A stretch of DNA of 64,000 bases. Source: Nitrospirales bacterium (GTDB taxonomy: Bacteria > Nitrospirota > Nitrospiria > Nitrospirales > UBA8639). Below, piece by piece: positions 53,762 through 62,175 of this stretch. Below the pieces are notes generated by a model. The model was not told the origin of the DNA. It saw only the letters and a list, made by a program, of their open reading frames with translations, and ran no database searches. Location of the stretch: the NCBI GenBank assembly GCA_022828225.1, contig JAJEJG010000006.1:124001-188000 (forward strand). Reading direction: 5' to 3'. The translations under genes and the position numbers were made by a program. The stretch's first letter is position 1, and every line of letters begins with the position of its first letter.

Positions 53762-54868
53762 TTGAAAAATCGGCCGGTGGTTTTCATAATCTGTACGATC
53801 TTCAGCGTTTCACTCATTTGTGCCCCGGAAGGTTCGGCTCGCCGAACCCACTTGACTCCGGAACAAAAACAACAGCTCCAAAAAGCTCAGACCGTATTCG
53901 TGAACGCGCTTGCGCTCACGGAAAAAGGACGAACCGACTCCGAACCACTGCAGGCTCTCGTCTCTCAACGGCTTACGGAAGTCGGATTTTCCGTGACTGC
54001 CGACCGCAAACAAGCCCACGACGTCGAATTCAAGGTAAAGTGTGAAGAGCGGAAAACGTGGACCGGCACCACCGCGGAAGGAGGCGATGCCGAACTGCTT
54101 GATGCCCCGGCGCGGCTCTGGAAAGGACCGGCGTGTTTGTTGACCTATCTGGTCGATGGAAAGAACCTTGGATGGTACAAGGAAGTCCGAACGACCTTCC
54201 CGGATGCCATGGAAGCCGCCAAAAAAGCCGGAGCGAAAAACGCAGGGGACTATGCTCTGACCAAATTGGCCGAACGTCTCAATCAATATGATTTTCCGGT
54301 GCTGCTGGCGGCGGAATGGGGGCAGCCCGACCGGCTCATCCAACTGATCGACGCTCCGGACACGCCCAAAATCCGCAAACTGTTTATCCTGTCCGCGCTG
54401 AGCGAAATCGAAGCCGAAGCGGCGCTCCCGCACTTGACCAAGCTGATGCAGGATAAGGATCTGGCCCAGGAAGCCGTGGAGTCGCTCACCGGCGTGGGAG
54501 AAGATTCCATCCCGTTTCTCACCGATCTCTTTCAATCGTCAACGCAACCCGAGATTCAAGCGGCAGCCGCCAAGGCCTTGGGTGACGTGGCCGGAAGCAG
54601 CGGAAACCCCACGGCAATCCCCCCCCTGCTTGAATACCTGAAAGCCGCCTTAAAGAACTTCAATAGCTCTGACGATATTAATTTCCCCGTTTTAACCGAA
54701 GTTGTCTGGAGTCTCGGCAAACTCAGAGACGAAAACTCAATCGAACCCATGGACGAACTGAATCAGAGAGTTTGGCTAATCAGAGACACCTCGCAAGAAA
54801 TGGCAAACCTCCGGGAGGCGGCGAATTGGACGTATAAACAACTCGACCTGGACGGGCACGTCAGTTAA
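53762..54868 (+). CDS. Secreted HEAT-like repeat protein, paralog 1
   Basis: 368 residues with a TTG start at 53762 behind AAGGAGG. The signal peptide is VVFIICTIFSVSLICAPEGSA. Next comes an N-terminal domain with VFVNALALTEKG, HDVEFKVKCEERKTWTGTT and LWKGPACLLTYLVDGKNLGWYKEVRT. About residues 180-345 are helical repeats of HEAT type (ALPHLTKLMQDKDLAQEAVESL, IPFLTDLFQSSTQPEIQAAAAKAL). The protein at 54982 is a clear relative over the full length. Function unknown; likely a periplasmic scaffold. The 3' end carries a 17-bp tandem duplication. Confidence 0.8.
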   Translation: MKNRPVVFIICTIFSVSLICAPEGSARRTHLTPEQKQQLQKAQTVFVNALALTEKGRTDSEPLQALVSQRLTEVGFSVTADRKQAHDVEFKVKCEERKTWTGTTAEGGDAELLDAPARLWKGPACLLTYLVDGKNLGWYKEVRTTFPDAMEAAKKAGAKNAGDYALTKLAERLNQYDFPVLLAAEWGQPDRLIQLIDAPDTPKIRKLFILSALSEIEAEAALPHLTKLMQDKDLAQEAVESLTGVGEDSIPFLTDLFQSSTQPEIQAAAAKALGDVAGSSGNPTAIPPLLEYLKAALKNFNSSDDINFPVLTEVVWSLGKLRDENSIEPMDELNQRVWLIRDTSQEMANLREAANWTYKQLDLDGHVS

Positions 54869-54981: not shown

Positions 54982-56082
54982 ATGAGATACGTTTCAGGAA
55001 TACTCGTCTGCTTACTACTCTTGGCGGTCACGACCGAAAGTATGGCGCGCCGAAGCCACATCACAAACGAACAAAGGGCCCAATTAGCCAAGGTCAACAC
55101 GATATACCTCAACGTCCTTGCGCTGACGGAGAATGGGCGAGTACCGCCGGACAATCTGCTGACCACGGCCAAAACGCGGTTGGAAGCCATCGGATACAAA
55201 GTTGTCACCGACCGGAAAGAGCCCCATGACGTGGAGTTTCGGATGAAGTGCGAAGAACGGAAACGGTGGACGGGCACCACGCGCTCCGGCGGAGACGCGG
55301 AATTGGCCGACGCCCCTGCCCGCCTGTGGAAGGGACCGGCGTGTCTCTTCAATTATCGTCTCGAAGGGCGGGACTTGGGTTGGTATAAGGAAACCCGGAC
55401 TGATTTCGTGGACGCCTATGCCGCGGCACGAAAAGCCAAAGCCAAAAGCTCCGGACAATATGCCCTGGAACAACTGAACCTGAAGCTGCAGGAATTCGAT
55501 TTTCCCATCATGATCGCCACGGAATGGAGGCATACCGACCGTTTGGCTCAACTCCTGGAGAATCCGGATACGGATAAACGCCGCAAATTGCGGATTCTCT
55601 CCACGCTGTCACGGGTTCAATCAAAGCAGGCCTTTCCCCATTTGGTGAAATTGGCGAGAGATGAAAACGCCGAGTATGCCGAAGAAGCGATTATCGCTCT
55701 GGCCGGACTCGGCAGGTCGGCAACGCCCATACTCACGGATATCTTTGTCACGGCACAGAATTCGAAGATTCAAGCTGCCGCGGCCAAAGGATTGGGCTTG
55801 GTCGGCGCCCACACCGGCGACCCCGACATCACGCCGCCGTTGCTCGATTATCTCAACAAGAATTTGGAAGACATGGACGAATCCTCGGACATCGATTTTC
55901 CGGTGCTCACCGAAGTCGTCTGGTCGATAGCCAAACTCCGAAACGACAATTCCGTCGAACCGATTGAACAACTCAACATCAAGATCTGGCTCATCCGGGA
56001 CACGTCGGAGGCAATGAAAAAACTGCGGGAAGCCGCCAACGTCGCCACCAAAATGGTGGACCTCGACTATCAAATCATGTAG
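54982..56082 (+). CDS. Secreted HEAT-like repeat protein, paralog 2
   Basis: 366 residues, start preceded by AGGAGG. The signal peptide is YVSGILVCLLLLAVTTESMA. The remaining protein follows paralog 1 block by block: LALTENGRV, PHDVEFRMKCEERKRWTGTT, LWKGPACLFNYRLEGRDLGWYKETRT, HEAT-like AFPHLVKLARDENAEYAEEAI and the C-terminal SSDIDFPVLTEVVWSIAKLR. The tandem arrangement in the same orientation, 113 bp apart, indicates a local gene duplication. The two may interact or act on related ligands. Function unknown. Confidence 0.8.
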   Translation: MRYVSGILVCLLLLAVTTESMARRSHITNEQRAQLAKVNTIYLNVLALTENGRVPPDNLLTTAKTRLEAIGYKVVTDRKEPHDVEFRMKCEERKRWTGTTRSGGDAELADAPARLWKGPACLFNYRLEGRDLGWYKETRTDFVDAYAAARKAKAKSSGQYALEQLNLKLQEFDFPIMIATEWRHTDRLAQLLENPDTDKRRKLRILSTLSRVQSKQAFPHLVKLARDENAEYAEEAIIALAGLGRSATPILTDIFVTAQNSKIQAAAAKGLGLVGAHTGDPDITPPLLDYLNKNLEDMDESSDIDFPVLTEVVWSIAKLRNDNSVEPIEQLNIKIWLIRDTSEAMKKLREAANVATKMVDLDYQIM

Positions 56083-56107: not shown

Positions 56108-56187
56108 CTCTACCCCACCTATCCTCCCCTTACAAAGGGGAGGAACAGGAAGGGGCATGCTTCTTTTATTACCCTCCTGATTCCCCT
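56108..56187 (+). repeat. Repeat family B, truncated copy at the kinase 3' end
   Basis: CTCTACCCCACCT and hairpin CCTCCCCTTACAAAGGGGAGG with GGGGCATGC match the left part of the B elements, and GATTCCCCTC (56178-56187) matches the start of the right hairpin. After that the match stops exactly where the histidine kinase gene ends. A matching right-hand piece is at 59016-59040, across the foreign-looking segment. Confidence 0.7.
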
Positions 56188-58538
56188 CATTCTTCGCCAG
56201 GCCTCGCCATGCGGTAGCCGACGCCGCGCTCGTTGAAGATGTAGGTGGGGCGCGCGGCGGCGTCGCCGAGCTTCGCGCGGAGTTGTTTCACGAAGGAGCG
56301 CACGCGCTCGGGGTCGATGAAGCCGCGGCCCCACACCTGGCGCATCAGCGACTCCGACGTCACCACCTGCCCGGCGTTGACCGAGAGGATGCGCAGGATC
56401 TCGTACTCGGTGGCCGTGAGCGTCACCGCGCGCCCGTCCACCGTGACCCGGCGCCGTTCGTAGTCGATGGCGAGCGCGCCGAGCACGAACGGCTCGGCGC
56501 CCGCGTGGGCGCGCAGCGCCGCCCCGACCCGCGCGGTGAGTTCCGTCGCCGAGAAGGGCTTGACGAGGTAGTCGGCGGCGCCGGCCGTGAAGGCGCGCGC
56601 GATGGTCTCGTCGCGGCCGTAGCCCGAGATGAAGATGACCGGCTGGTCGGAGAGTTCCGGGACCTTGGCCATCAACTCGATCCCGTCGGTCCCGGGCAGC
56701 ATGAGGTCGAGCAGCACGAGCGTGGGCTGCTCGTTGAGGATGAGGGCGGGCAGTTCGTCCAGATCGGCGGTGACCAACACGGCGTAGCCCGCCTGCGTGA
56801 GCGCGTCGCGCACGAAGCGAAGCGTATGCGGGTCGTCGTCCACGACGAGGACGCACGGTTTCGCGGCCGGCTCGCCGGCGGGACGCCTGGCCGTCCGCCG
56901 GGCCCTCGCACCGGCGGCGCCGGCCTCGGTCACCGGAAGCGTGAAGGTGAACCGCGCGCCCTGCCCGAGCCCGGCGCTCTCGGCGCGGATGCGGCCCCCG
57001 TGCGCCTCCACCAGCCCCTTGCAGATCGCCAGCCCCAACCCGCTCGTCACGGTCCCGTGCTCGGCGTCGCCGCCGGTAAGCGCGACGTGCTTGCGAAAGA
57101 GCTGCCCCAGCAGCTCCGGCGGCACGCCCCGCCCCTCGTCGCGGACCGAGATTGCCACGTGCGTACCGTCGCGCGACGCCTCCACCCGTATGGGGGAGGA
57201 CTCCGGAGAGTGTCGGGCGGCGTTTGAGAGCAGATTGTTCAGCACCTGCACGATGCGCTCGCGGTCGGCCATCACCCGGGGCAGCTCCGGCGGCAGATCT
57301 ATGCGAACGGCGTGCCGGGCGCCGCCGCTCAGGAACGTGCTCCGCGCCCGGTCCACGAGCACGGCCACCTCCGAGGGCTCCGGCGCGACCGAGAGCGTCC
57401 CCGCCTCGATGCGGCCGGCGTCGAGGAGGTTGCCGATGAGCGCCTGCATGTGGTTGGCCTGCGCGTCGATGATGCGGAAGAACTGCTGCACCTCGGCCGG
57501 CGGCAGGGCGGGGGCGGCGCCGAGCACCGCGGCCGCCGACCCCTTGATGGCCGCAAGCGGCGTGCGCAACTCGTGGCTCACGAGCCCCAGGAACTCCGCG
57601 CGCTGGCGCTCGATCTCCTGGAGCGGGGCCAGGTCCTGCATGGTGACGACCACCGAGACCACCGCGCCGTCTTCGGCGCGGATCGGCGTGCCGTTGACCA
57701 GGATCGAGACGCTGCGCCCGTCCGGGACCGAGAGCACGAACTCCTCGGCGCGCACCGTCTCGCCGGTGCGGAGCCACTCTGCAACGGGGAACTCGCTCAG
57801 GCTCACCTCCCGGCCGTCGGGACAGCGGACCGTCACCACCTCGAGGAGCGCCTCCGTGGGGAGGTCCCCGGTGCGCAGGCCCTCGACGATACGTCGCGCC
57901 TCCCGATTGAACGACACCGGACGGCCGGTCCTCGCGTCGAACACCACCACGCCGACCGGCGAGGTCTCGACCAGGGCCTCGAGGTCGGCCCGCGCGCGCC
58001 GCTCCGCGCTGTGGGCGCGCGCGTTGGCGATGGCGGTCGCGGCCTGCGAGGCGAAGAGCATCAGCACCTCCTCGTCCTCGTCGGTGAACGCCGGCGCGTC
58101 CTCCTTCTCGGCGAGGAAGAAATGACCTACGGTCTCGCCGCGATGGCGCATCGGCGTGCCCTGGAAGGTCCTCGCGAGAATCAGGCCCGGGGAAAAGCCC
58201 AGCGAGCGGACCAGCGCGGGGAGGTCGGTGAGGCGAACCGGGCCCGGCAGGTCGTGCAGGTGCGCGAACAGCTTCGGTCCCTCCGGCCACTCGGCGAACC
58301 GGCGGTGCTCTTCCTCGGTGAAGCCGGAGGAGACGAAGTCGCGCACCTCGCCGGTCTCGTCAACGGTAGTGATGATGCCGTAGCGCGCACCGGTGAGCGC
58401 GCGGGCGGTATCGGCCGCCTCCTGCAGCACGGTGGCGAGGTCGAGGCTGGCGCTGGTGCGCAGGATGGCCGCGCTCAACGCGGCGAGGCGCTCGTGGGCC
58501 GCCTGGAGCGCGCGGCGCGTGTCGTCGGGACCGTTCAT
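56187..58538 (-). CDS. Hybrid histidine kinase with receiver and OmpR-type DNA-binding domain
   Basis: 783 residues from the ATG at 58538 (AAGGAGG upstream). Order: GAF (about 15-165), PAS (185-290), HisKA with phospho-His in SHELRTPL, HATPase with NNLLSNAARHSPE, DEGRGVPPE and GLGLAICKGL, an Ala/Arg linker, receiver with VVDDDPH and phospho-Asp in LLDLMLPG, then a winged helix of OmpR/PhoB type ending YIFNERGVGYRM. It is cytoplasmic, with no membrane segment. Input, phosphorelay and DNA binding are in one chain, so no partner is needed. The GC content is far above that of its neighbours, indicating transfer from a GC-rich donor. Confidence 0.9.
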   Translation of the reverse strand: MNGPDDTRRALQAAHERLAALSAAILRTSASLDLATVLQEAADTARALTGARYGIITTVDETGEVRDFVSSGFTEEEHRRFAEWPEGPKLFAHLHDLPGPVRLTDLPALVRSLGFSPGLILARTFQGTPMRHRGETVGHFFLAEKEDAPAFTDEDEEVLMLFASQAATAIANARAHSAERRARADLEALVETSPVGVVVFDARTGRPVSFNREARRIVEGLRTGDLPTEALLEVVTVRCPDGREVSLSEFPVAEWLRTGETVRAEEFVLSVPDGRSVSILVNGTPIRAEDGAVVSVVVTMQDLAPLQEIERQRAEFLGLVSHELRTPLAAIKGSAAAVLGAAPALPPAEVQQFFRIIDAQANHMQALIGNLLDAGRIEAGTLSVAPEPSEVAVLVDRARSTFLSGGARHAVRIDLPPELPRVMADRERIVQVLNNLLSNAARHSPESSPIRVEASRDGTHVAISVRDEGRGVPPELLGQLFRKHVALTGGDAEHGTVTSGLGLAICKGLVEAHGGRIRAESAGLGQGARFTFTLPVTEAGAAGARARRTARRPAGEPAAKPCVLVVDDDPHTLRFVRDALTQAGYAVLVTADLDELPALILNEQPTLVLLDLMLPGTDGIELMAKVPELSDQPVIFISGYGRDETIARAFTAGAADYLVKPFSATELTARVGAALRAHAGAEPFVLGALAIDYERRRVTVDGRAVTLTATEYEILRILSVNAGQVVTSESLMRQVWGRGFIDPERVRSFVKQLRAKLGDAAARPTYIFNERGVGYRMARPGEE

Positions 58539-58740
58539 CGGGGGTCGCCTCCTTTCCAATGGGAACTATCCGGAATAGTTGACGGCCCTTCCTCATTGTC
58601 GCTGCGGGATCGTATCCGCCGTCTTCTTGGCCGCATAAGATACGGCAGCTACAAATCAAAGAGGCCGGGGCCGGGTTCGCGGCGTGTGGGGCCGGGCGCG
58701 GCGACCGATTCGGACACCACTGGGCGAGGATAGCAGAAGC

Positions 58741-58782
58741 AAACCCAAAAAACCACGAAAAACACACGAAAAACATAAAAAA
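58741..58782 (+). promoter_or_regulatory. Phased A-tracts (predicted bent DNA) upstream of the kinase gene
   Basis: Runs of A at 58747-58752, 58758-58762, 58769-58773 and 58777-58782 have centres about 10.5, 11 and 8.5 bp apart. A-tracts in helical phase bend DNA. They lie some 200 bp upstream of the kinase start, where GC content drops sharply. Whether a promoter uses the bend is not known. Confidence 0.5.
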
Positions 58783-58874
58783 GGCACGCGAAACTCATAT
58801 AGTGTCGTGTCGTTTTTGGCCTATTATTTTTCTGGACTTATCCGGAACCTCAAGGAGAATTCAGAAAAGGCTTG

Positions 58875-59015
58875 TGCTATGATTTTGCTATGTCTTGCTA
58901 TGTTTAATGCTATGAATGCTATGTTTGTGCTATGCTTGCTATAATATTGCTATGAATTCTATATTTCTGCTATGTCTATGCTATCCTTGCTATGATATTG
59001 CTATGTCCTGCTATG
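58875..59015 (+). repeat. Array of 14 TGCTATG heptamers with a helical spacing
   Basis: TGCTATG or a close variant begins at 58875, 58886, 58896, 58908, 58917, 58928, 58937, 58948, 58957, 58968, 58979, 58988, 58999 and 59009. The steps are 9 to 12 bp with a mean near 10.3 bp, so all units face the same side of the helix. Units 7 (TGCTATA), 9 (TTCTATA) and 11 (TGCTATC) are variants. Spacers are AT-rich and not conserved. The whole unoccupied region 58539-58991 otherwise contains only the kinase leader and the A-tracts. Confidence 0.92.
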
Positions 59016-59543
59016 TTTCCCATCCTTTGTAAAGAGAGGCAAAATGGAGGAAAAAAGGGCGTCGCTTGGATCTGCTCTGTTTCTCTTCTTGTACTCGTTG
59101 TCTCTGTTTTCCCCGGTCCGGCTCAAGCCTCCGATGCCGAACGGGAACTCTCGCGGCTCCAAACGCAAGCCGAAAATGCGATGGCTCAGGGTGATCCTCA
59201 GGGCGCGGCCAACAGCATCGGCAGGGCCGCTTTGCTGGCCTCCCAACTCGACAAACAATCTGACGCAACCCGGCCGCCCTACCGAATCATGAGCGATCTG
59301 TTTCGAACACAGGAACAGGTGTATCGCGCCATTGCCCTGTTTCAACAGAGTGGAGAGCGAACCCCGGCCTCTTCCGGAATTTGCTCGTTACTCTCTCAAG
59401 GCGGGCAGCATGCCGTCCGGGCACTGGAGCACAATTCCGCCACAACAGCGAGTCCGGCTGTTCATGAACGCCTGCAACAGGAAACCATGGAATGGCTGGA
59501 AACCGTTCAGGAAGTGCAACAGGAATGGGATTGCAGGCAGTAG
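59013..59543 (+). CDS. Hypothetical secreted helical protein
   Basis: 176 residues if the ATG at 59013 is used; the ATG at 58992 would add seven. Both lie in or at the edge of the heptamer array, and neither has a good ribosome site. The signal sequence is KKGVAWICSVSLLVLVVSVFPGPAQA. The mature protein is helical (AERELSRLQTQAENAMAQGDPQGAANSIGRAALLASQL, VHERLQQETMEWLETVQEVQQEW), has a few Cys and looks like a small TPR- or four-helix protein. It is 61 bp upstream of the TonB receptor and may be its periplasmic or surface partner. Confidence 0.7.
   Translation: MFPILCKERQNGGKKGVAWICSVSLLVLVVSVFPGPAQASDAERELSRLQTQAENAMAQGDPQGAANSIGRAALLASQLDKQSDATRPPYRIMSDLFRTQEQVYRAIALFQQSGERTPASSGICSLLSQGGQHAVRALEHNSATTASPAVHERLQQETMEWLETVQEVQQEWDCRQ
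59016..59040 (+). repeat. Family B fragment, right-hand piece
   Basis: TTTCCCATCCTTTGTAAAG followed by AGAGGC resembles the right hairpin of family B (ATTCCCCTCCTTTGTAAAG...). It begins directly after the last TGCTATG unit. It complements the truncated copy at 56108-56187 and may be the other half of one disrupted element. Confidence 0.55.
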
Positions 59544-59604
59544 GCATGATGGATATATTACGTCCGCATAATTTTTCAGGGAGGCTTTGAGAGAGGGATT
59601 CAGC

Positions 59605-62175
59605 ATGAATAGATCATCATGGACTCGACTTTCACGTCTACGCTTCCTCGAACGTCTTGCCAACACCATTCTGGTCGTTGGATTGACGGCTCTCGCGGCA
59701 ATAACGGCAATCACGCCGCAAATCCGTGCAGCCGACTGGATCCCATCCGTGGCCGGCAATATTCCCACTGCTCAGGCGGACGCGGTGCGTCCCCTCACCG
59801 TGATCGACAGGGAGGATATCGAACTGTCCGGCATGAGAAACGTCTATGACCTGTTGAATTCATCCCACGGGCGAGGGTACTTCAACAACTTCGGCATCTT
59901 TCGGCCGTTCGTGGCCGGATCCAGCCGCGTCGCAGTACTCATCAACGGCCGCCGGGTTTCCGATTCGATTGTCGATCTTCACACCCTGCCGATATCGGGT
60001 GTCGAGCGTATCGAGATCCTGGGCGACAGCGCCGCGGCCTTGCGCGGCGGACACGCCATCGGCGGCGCGATCAACATCGTGCTCAAGCGCGATCTTGAAG
60101 GCCTCGAGATTCAGGCAAGCCCTGCATGGACGACCCAAACCGGCGGTGATTTCGGTCAGGGAAGCGTCTTATGGGGAAGCGCGCTCGGACGAGGGCATAT
60201 CACGATCGGGGCAGACCTGTTTCGGAGAGAGCAAATCCGCGACCGGGACCGGAGTTACAGCCGCGCCTCATGGACTCCGGGAGGCTTATTCGCCGATACG
60301 ACCGGTGTTTCGACAGGCGGCAACACCCTTTTGATCAGGACGGACAACAAAACAGTCGGACGTCCTCTGGGCGACTGCGAAGGCAGCGCCTATACCGGCG
60401 TGCTTGCCCAACCGCCGGGCGCCTCATCCGGCGAAGGCTGCGGCTTTGCATACGCCGACGTCGCGTGGCACCTGCAACCGTATGCCCGTTATGAGCGGGA
60501 GAGCATGTTTTTCAATTTCGATCATCCGCTGGGAAAGGACGCGGACGTGTACCTCGACTTCAGAGCTGCCTGGGACGACACGGCAGAACGCTATGCTCCA
60601 TCAGTCGGCACCTTTTCCTTTACTCCCTCGGAGACGCTCAAACAGAGATTGCGGCAGGACCCCGAAATTGACACTCTTCCGGACAGGGTCCGTGTCGCCC
60701 ATCGATTCGTCGGCCACGGCAATCGAGATTGGCGAACGGATACGGATGAATACGACCTCACGCTGGGTTTCCGTGGCCGGTTCGTCGACAGGATCAACTA
60801 CAATACCTACGTCCGGTATTATCGTCACGATACCCTGACAATCGGCGATACGTTCGTGAGCGAGTCGCTGGCACAGCAAGCCATCGAAGAGGGTCGCTAT
60901 GACATCGAAAACCCGTTTTCGACGGACACGACACATCTGGCAGCCATCCGCGACACCGGACTCAGACAGACCCGCGACCAAGTCACGGATCATAAGACGG
61001 CCCGCATCGTCTTCGACGGTCCGGCGTTCGCACTCGGCGGACGGGACGTGAAATGGGCCGCGGGCGCCGCATTCGCCCATGAGGAACGGAGGAACATCTA
61101 CGATTATCGGGATACCGGTAACAGGTCCTACGAAGCCTCGGACGTGCTCGGATCGAGTGGCAACTCGTTCTCGGGCGAACGCCGACGCTGGTCCGCGTTT
61201 ACGGAAGTCTCCCTCCCCGTGCGCAACGATTGGGATCTTGTCCTCGCGGGGCGGCTCGACGAACACGACGACGTAGGCACGGCTTTTTCCCACCAGATCA
61301 CGAGCCGATACCGATTGCACCAGGCAATCACGCTTCGCGGGTCCTGGAATCAAGCATCCAGGGCTCCCAGCCTGTCATCTCTACACCAACTCCAAGCAAG
61401 CAGCTATCCATACATTTGTGATAGAAAAACGTTCGCCGGCAACTTGCAGAATTGCCCCAGATATCAAGTGGAGCGCACGTTCGGCGGGAATCAAAACCTC
61501 AAGCCGGACGATGCCGAGAGTTTCAGCCTCGGGGCCGTGATGAGCCTGGGGCCGTTTTCCTTGAGCGCGGACTGGTTCAGGATCGGGATGACCGACATTC
61601 CGACCCGGTTGTCTGCGCAGTCTATCATCGACCTGGAAGCGGAAGGACGGTTACCCTCAGGCGTGACCGTGACACGCGATGGAGATTTCATTGCCCTGAT
61701 CGAAAGCCCGTTGGTCAACGGCGGGGAAAGCGACCTTGCCGGATTCAACGTTCAGGGCAACATGGACTGGAAAACCGATTGGGCGGACGTGGTCTTTGCT
61801 GCCTACTGGTCACACCTTACTGAAAACGAATTTCGTGTAGCCGGAGAAGTCCAACCAGGCGACTACCCGCGAAATCGCGTCCATGCACTGCTTCGCGTAA
61901 GCAGAAGCGGCGTGACCGCGAACTGGAGCGTCATTGGGGTTTCAGGCTATTCAAACGTACTGGGAACTGCCCGTTACAAGGCGTGGATGGGGAACAACGT
62001 CACAATCCAATGGCACGATGCATTGGGCGTGAAAGGAATGGACCTGGCAGGCGGCATCCTCAATATCGGCAATCGCGGTCCGTCAACGGCCACCCAACAG
62101 GAAGTCGACCGGACTCAGGATTCCACCAGGGGGCGTACGTTCTTCCTGACCGCCAAAATCTCGTTCGACCCGTGA
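59605..62175 (+). CDS. TonB-dependent outer-membrane receptor
   Basis: 856 residues from the ATG at 59605, with GAGGGA upstream (a TTG at 59587 is less likely). The signal peptide is about 40 residues. The plug domain is recognisable: VIDREDIELSGMRNVYDLLN, VAVLINGRRVSD, SGVERIEILGDSAAALRGGHAIGGAINIVLKR. The remaining 620 residues are barrel strands ending RTFFLTAKISFDP with a terminal aromatic pattern. Ligand unknown: the barrel has no visible iron-siderophore or cobalamin marker. No TonB, ExbB or ExbD gene is in the window. Confidence 0.9.
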   Translation: MNRSSWTRLSRLRFLERLANTILVVGLTALAAITAITPQIRAADWIPSVAGNIPTAQADAVRPLTVIDREDIELSGMRNVYDLLNSSHGRGYFNNFGIFRPFVAGSSRVAVLINGRRVSDSIVDLHTLPISGVERIEILGDSAAALRGGHAIGGAINIVLKRDLEGLEIQASPAWTTQTGGDFGQGSVLWGSALGRGHITIGADLFRREQIRDRDRSYSRASWTPGGLFADTTGVSTGGNTLLIRTDNKTVGRPLGDCEGSAYTGVLAQPPGASSGEGCGFAYADVAWHLQPYARYERESMFFNFDHPLGKDADVYLDFRAAWDDTAERYAPSVGTFSFTPSETLKQRLRQDPEIDTLPDRVRVAHRFVGHGNRDWRTDTDEYDLTLGFRGRFVDRINYNTYVRYYRHDTLTIGDTFVSESLAQQAIEEGRYDIENPFSTDTTHLAAIRDTGLRQTRDQVTDHKTARIVFDGPAFALGGRDVKWAAGAAFAHEERRNIYDYRDTGNRSYEASDVLGSSGNSFSGERRRWSAFTEVSLPVRNDWDLVLAGRLDEHDDVGTAFSHQITSRYRLHQAITLRGSWNQASRAPSLSSLHQLQASSYPYICDRKTFAGNLQNCPRYQVERTFGGNQNLKPDDAESFSLGAVMSLGPFSLSADWFRIGMTDIPTRLSAQSIIDLEAEGRLPSGVTVTRDGDFIALIESPLVNGGESDLAGFNVQGNMDWKTDWADVVFAAYWSHLTENEFRVAGEVQPGDYPRNRVHALLRVSRSGVTANWSVIGVSGYSNVLGTARYKAWMGNNVTIQWHDALGVKGMDLAGGILNIGNRGPSTATQQEVDRTQDSTRGRTFFLTAKISFDP

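Follow-up and report, generated by a model that had tools for sequence, protein, structure and literature searches.

An array of heptamers beside a TonB-dependent receptor gene

The window, by which we mean the whole 64,000-nucleotide stretch analysed here, carries an array of TGCTATG-like heptamers on its plus strand at positions 58875-59015. To the left lie a HEAT-repeat gene (54982-56082, plus strand), which marks the left edge of the region that lacks both kinase and array in relatives, and a gene for a hybrid kinase of GAF-PAS-HisKA-HATPase-REC-Trans_reg_C architecture (56187-58559, minus strand). To the right, a reading frame for a secreted protein (59013-59543, plus strand) is followed by the gene of a TonB-dependent receptor (59587-62175, plus strand). 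The array is preceded by a diverged copy of a 5' end cassette (58852-58874, plus strand; aaggagaattcagaaaaggcttg here and gaccgaaggagacaaaaggcttg elsewhere) and followed by the junction tttcccatcc (59016-59025, plus strand), which resembles the 3' cassette of other arrays (ttccgcaaagcgggcgg) at most in degenerate form. The sole ATG starts before the signal peptide of the secreted protein (58992 and 59013) fall within array units; in relatives this frame has no start codon in genome G010 and only non-ATG ones in G005. The adjacent HEAT-repeat proteins at 53762-54868 and 54982-56082 resemble tandem paralogs, the second being kept beside the TonB operon in relatives, and a short tandem repeat (AAAAACACACG) is found shortly upstream of the array at 58748-58775.

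The original prediction of 14 TGCTATG heptamers holds for the number and position of the units (starts at 58875, 58886, 58896, 58908, 58917, 58928, 58937, 58948, 58957, 58968, 58979, 58988, 58999 and 59009), but just 11 of them are exact, the others reading TGCTATA (58937), TTCTATA (58957) and TGCTATC (58979). The predicted step of 9 to 12 bp with a mean of about 10.3 bp was confirmed, the steps in order being 11, 10, 12, 9, 11, 9, 11, 9, 11, 11, 9, 11 and 10 bp with a mean of 10.31 bp. The whole window contains 14 exact heptamers, 11 of them inside the array, against a mean of 2.6 and a maximum of 8 in dinucleotide shuffles of the window, and Markov-1 sequences of the 400-bp region yield at most three against the 11 observed; these counts exclude a chance origin. 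In Tandem Repeats Finder, a period of 11 fits poorly, with 69% matches and 14% indels, and periods of 20 and 40 are proposed too as higher-order solutions. The alternation of 9- and 11-bp steps is a first sign that phase rather than spacing is kept. The spacers, described at the outset as not conserved, do vary within this array; arrays at other loci nevertheless share some of its spacer runs and its two end sequences.

The TonB-dependent receptor is kept in G003, G005, G010, G012 and G013, where neither array nor kinase lies upstream, and four of these five genomes carry several arrays elsewhere. Because all five orthologous loci are free of it, the window array is a lineage-specific arrival, and its reading as a conserved promoter of the TonB operon was rejected on the same grounds. 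A different dispersed repeat lies upstream of the receptor in G010 and G005. The winged helix of the kinase, proposed originally as the binding domain, was rejected as a general array binder by its distribution, given that five of the eight array-rich genomes (G001, G008, G011, G012 and G013) lack a kinase ortholog and G004, a genome without any TGCTATG array, has one. The kinase ortholog of G003 (L287) is encoded on a different contig and contains an in-frame TGA.

Distribution of the arrays across genomes and gene settings

A genome-wide cluster search, as suggested by the original prediction, revealed about 17 arrays of 5-18 units each in the window's own genome (G000), where a pattern of three units separated by any 1-6 bp gives 60 matches. 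This pattern was found in 9 of the 14 genomes of the genus and in none of 27 other genomes of the family and order, its reversed control gave no matches, and among 296 genomes drawn from 135 genera of the phylum it was confined to the window's genus. A scan of 84,980 species returned at least 115 stretches, and outside the genus, among the matches listed, almost all were short exact or near-exact tandem repeats. The literature searched contained no prior report of TGCTATG arrays. The data set used below comprises 76 arrays with 785 units in the stretches of DNA around them, the commonest heptamer variants being TGCTATA, TGCGATG, TGCTATT and CGCTATG. The left end of many arrays (L166, L189, L194, L237, L238 and others) is a unit in inverted orientation, CATCGCA or CATAGCA, followed by T and then TGCTAT, which gives a palindromic junction.

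Most arrays belong to 14 orthologous locus groups defined by their flanking genes, with up to eight genomes per group and with side and orientation of the array agreeing within it. Genes called with a simple program, which overlooks some of them, place 20 arrays in divergent, 10 in convergent and 23 in tandem settings, and no array overlaps a called gene. With neighbouring proteins identified by reading, one array lies between the converging genes xth and pyruvoyl-dependent arginine decarboxylase, whose ends are 6 and 13 bp away, and another between the divergent genes nuoF and purE; further neighbours, mutually unrelated, include thiC, type I restriction genes and hflK, among others. Since the shared loci occupy divergent, convergent and tandem gaps alike, the arrays are not a promoter element as such. 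A local operator controlling the kinase gene as well as the secreted-protein/TonB genes, with either the kinase winged helix or some other response regulator as its binder, would suit the divergent position at the window locus and the binding of PhoB/OmpR-type regulators to direct repeats of about 11 bp. Sites of that type, however, have fixed spacing, few repeats and promoter positions, unlike the arrays, and their operators need the regulator wherever the sites are, while the kinase is missing from most array-bearing genomes. Together with the five array-free TonB loci and the arrays in convergent gaps, these points speak strongly against a local operator, which we consider very improbable, and the claim that the array serves as promoter region of both neighbours was not borne out. 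Slightly less probable again is an element acting at the RNA level, in which the transcribed array would bind a protein or form a terminator or stability element: some arrays directly follow stop codons (6 bp in the case of xth), but orientation to the flanking genes is about even, a search against Rfam gave no match, and a period close to that of B-DNA has no evident meaning at the RNA level.

At the level of the chromosome, arrays on the same contig of G000 are at least about 64 kb apart (P = 0.003 against random placement, with some contig sizes assumed), and at 14 of the 17 arrays TGCTATG is found on the strand of negative GC skew. Strand polarity agrees at 25 of 33 loci overall (p = 0.005) and at 11 of 16 when the loci of G000 are excluded (p = 0.21), both the even-spacing and the strand-polarity tests being post hoc. 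The unrelated housekeeping neighbours, the presence of every orientation, the even spread and the GC-skew strand bias suggest a chromosome-level role rather than a regulon.

The main rival to such a role, which we judge possible but unlikely, is that the arrays belong to a mobile or selfish repeat family, dispersed and non-autonomous, whose heptamers would be needed for its spread as sites bound by a recombinase or by replication proteins. The strand bias and the avoidance of close copies are also compatible with insertion bias plus loss of near copies by recombination, and the lineage-specific insertion in the window, with array-free sites in relatives, agrees with mobility. The 5' cassette GACCGAAGGAGACAAAAGGCTTG was found 10 times, each time abutting an array, in stretches of DNA that are themselves centred on arrays, and the 3' cassette TTCCGCAAAGCGGGCGG abuts 20 arrays; cassettes of this kind, candidate ends of a MITE-like repeat, occur on a subset of arrays only. 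Further dispersed repeats of intergenic regions, AAAGACACTGGATGCCCGATCGGGGTCGGGCATGACA being one example, often surround the arrays, as in the flanks of L156, L158, L160, L161, L163, L167 and L169. On the other side, 14 loci are common to species in the same place and orientation in up to eight genomes, heptamers are kept in place between orthologs, and no transposase or target duplication was identified. REP/BIME, MITE and cyanobacterial STRR elements resemble the arrays in being intergenic, multi-copy and lineage-restricted, but they are palindromes or have a fixed period, whereas the arrays keep only the heptamer and its helical phase.

Helical phasing and heptamer conservation

Across the arrays, steps are 9-12 bp, rarely 8 bp, and spacers are mostly 2-5 bp. 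CRISPR repeats are about 23-50 bp long with spacers of similar length, and a CRISPR array was ruled out by the 7-bp units and short spacers seen here. The 61 arrays with at least eight units each have a per-array period of 10.43 ± 0.02 bp, and the standard deviation of the period between arrays is 0.135, compared with 0.248 expected for independent steps. This spread is a stronger test of phasing than the residuals about a fitted line, which barely differ from a random walk (0.54 versus 0.62). A step of 9 bp is followed by 10, 11 or 12 bp (6, 47 and 4 cases) and never by 9, and a step of 12 bp by 8, 9 or 10 bp (1, 8 and 24 cases) and never by 11 or 12. The lag-2 variance is 0.69 versus 1.03-1.14 in shuffled data (1.03 when steps are shuffled within runs), and successive steps are anticorrelated with r = -0.40 over 456 distinct spacer pairs; with one array per locus, the correlation is negative at 26 of 30 independent loci. 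Common ancestry of modules was rejected as the sole cause of phasing, as the effect survives both reductions. Short and long steps thus compensate, so that helical phase is held though spacers vary, and gaps at decayed units, mostly 20-22 bp, indicate that the lattice continues through them.

A simple tandem repeat or VNTR with a constant period and independent indels is ruled out by steps of 8-12 bp with strong compensation. Least credible of all the readings weighed here is an ordinary decaying tandem repeat, which would account for the head-to-tail copies and for a unit number that varies between orthologs, but neither for the anticorrelated steps nor for heptamers conserved beyond their flanks. 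A precise 10- or 11-mer decaying at random, which the original prediction had set against its own reading, was checked and rejected.

Conservation was assessed in orthologous pairs whose array alignments contain no indels shorter than 8 bp, the exact heptamers of one species being compared with the other species. Changes were found at 51 of 1890 heptamer sites (2.7%), 157 of 745 spacer sites (21%) and 498 of 3302 flank sites (15%); choosing exact heptamers in one species lowers their rate by up to half, and the heptamer deficit persists against half the flank rate (p = 0.0037). With one pair per locus, 17 of 497 heptamer sites were changed versus 71 of 342 (Fisher 1e-15). Unit number differs between orthologous arrays, and the indels are often multiples of 10-11 bp. 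These rates bear on a purely structural explanation, namely that phased TpA steps or T-tracts confer curvature or flexibility without a sequence-specific protein. The T-rich spacers and the single TA step per unit at about 10.4 bp would fit it, but curvature needs no exact 7-mer, and letter by letter the heptamer is conserved more than the T-rich spacers, which leaves this explanation about as improbable as the local operator. The proposal that one face of the helix is kept was upheld genus-wide, with compensating steps that hold the phase, a conserved heptamer and drifting spacers. Such a combination is as expected for a protein that would stack on one helix face; the physical meaning first given to the pattern is right, while the protein and the scope were wrong.

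A candidate binding protein and the possible role of the arrays

A reading frame of 139 amino acids, here called Arp, follows the array shared by the most genomes (eight) at a distance of about 45 bp, upstream of thiC. It is intact in G000, G001, G003, G005, G008, G011, G012 and G013, which are exactly the genomes with at least three arrays, and the intact proteins share 69-100% identity. Among the 14 genomes of the genus, Arp is absent from G002, G004, G006, G007 and G010, and G009 holds a 44-amino-acid remnant. G002, G006, G007 and G009 have no arrays by either search pattern, G004 has two degenerate pattern matches only, and G010 has a single array, with exact 10-bp steps, in the absence of arp. 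An array precedes arp in all eight Arp genomes, and the thiC site is array-free in the other six. The association has a Fisher p of 3e-4, a bare count that ignores phylogeny and the choice of gene. In a FastTree gene tree of thiC and xth, the Arp-positive G005 is placed beside the Arp-negative G010 (support 0.36), their nearest relatives being G004 and G006, and G009 with its Arp remnant falls in the outgroup; from these placements, the association seems to hold across more than a single event of gain or loss. Further genes could share the distribution of Arp across genomes. Runs of exact 10-bp steps, unlike most arrays, were seen in the xth-side array of G010 and in its G005 counterpart (L198, L278), the former genome being without and the latter with Arp.

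The Pfam family HARE-HTH (PF05066) matches eight of nine Arp family members (best E 5.3e-5), with bit scores of 17.3 and 21.7 for two of them, below the Pfam gathering score of 25.9; no MerR-type match is among the Pfam matches. Two AlphaFold2 models have low confidence (pLDDT 54 and 51) and predict a helical N-terminus. No array lies upstream of a homolog from another family (G195, 37% identity), and searches of plasmids and viral contigs gave no hit in the former and one distant relative in the latter (L290, 37% identity). Arp is probably DNA-binding and a better candidate binder than the kinase.

We contend, with a probability of roughly one in two, that Arp binds cooperatively to one helix face on dispersed platforms, probably in a chromosome-wide role. 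The approximately 17 arrays would be platforms for a sequence-specific DNA-binding protein, most likely Arp, which would assemble with one protomer (or dimer) per helical turn through a putative helical oligomerisation segment at its N-terminus and a putative HARE-HTH winged helix at its C-terminus. The array before arp may serve autoregulation, with Arp repressing or adjusting its own promoter, and the other arrays may form nucleoprotein patches with a nucleoid-organising role rather than a regulon. The window copy, with its diverged 5' end cassette, would be a lineage-specific arrival of such a platform. It can further be speculated, doubtful as this more specific proposal is, that these bacteria possess a lineage-specific chromosome-organising system, in which filaments of an oligomerising HARE-HTH protein would start from helically phased arrays that are polar and evenly spaced, protein and arrays being gained and lost jointly. 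The architectural and selfish readings are poorly separated by the data and both need a heptamer-binding protein; if the arrays are a selfish repeat, Arp, if it is a binder, would serve the element and not a chromosome function.

The nearest precedent for the proposed binding mode is BldC of Streptomyces, a small, MerR-like winged-HTH protein that assembles cooperatively head-to-tail on variable numbers of direct repeats, the tracts bound at smeA-sffA being one helical turn apart (PMC5859096). The TGCTATG arrays are likewise direct repeats one helical turn apart in variable number. BldC sites, however, are degenerate AT-rich 9-bp repeats, present in few copies at the promoters of a regulon (PMC5859096), whereas the arrays have a strict 7-mer, up to 18 units and positions in all types of intergenic gap, and Arp has no MerR match; membership of that family is not claimed. 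RdfS and other wHTH recombination directionality factors oligomerise along DNA by means of an extra N-terminal helix, but RdfS sites have no apparent consensus motif and form no dispersed arrays (PMC11963761). H-NS is a nucleoid protein whose cooperative binding nucleates at sites in helical phase, spaced by about 10 turns, and it prefers an AT-rich motif without a dense heptamer array, unlike the fixed word found here (PMC5418058).

In bacteria, proteins stacking on direct repeats are known from a few promoters. The nine species studied here provide a comparative footprint, with a fixed seven-letter word, free spacers and a phase held by compensating steps, from which the phase requirement of cooperative DNA assembly becomes measurable from sequence alone. 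Arp offers a testable partner for the HARE-HTH family, whose bacterial functions are little known, and the arrays hint that uncultured bacteria related to Nitrospira may possess a chromosome-organising system.

Some members of the array-bearing genus are associated with sponges. Poribacteria MAGs contain a short repeated element (TGCTATGAA, TGCTATGAAAGCTGCTATGAAATTTGCTATGAAA) in which three TGCTATG units, spaced by about 11 bp, stand in a partly conserved frame; a search run without a positive control found no Arp homolog in five genomes bearing this element, which was itself seen at L039, L060, L071, L072, L074, L080, L086, L087, L097, L098, L103, L105 and L109.
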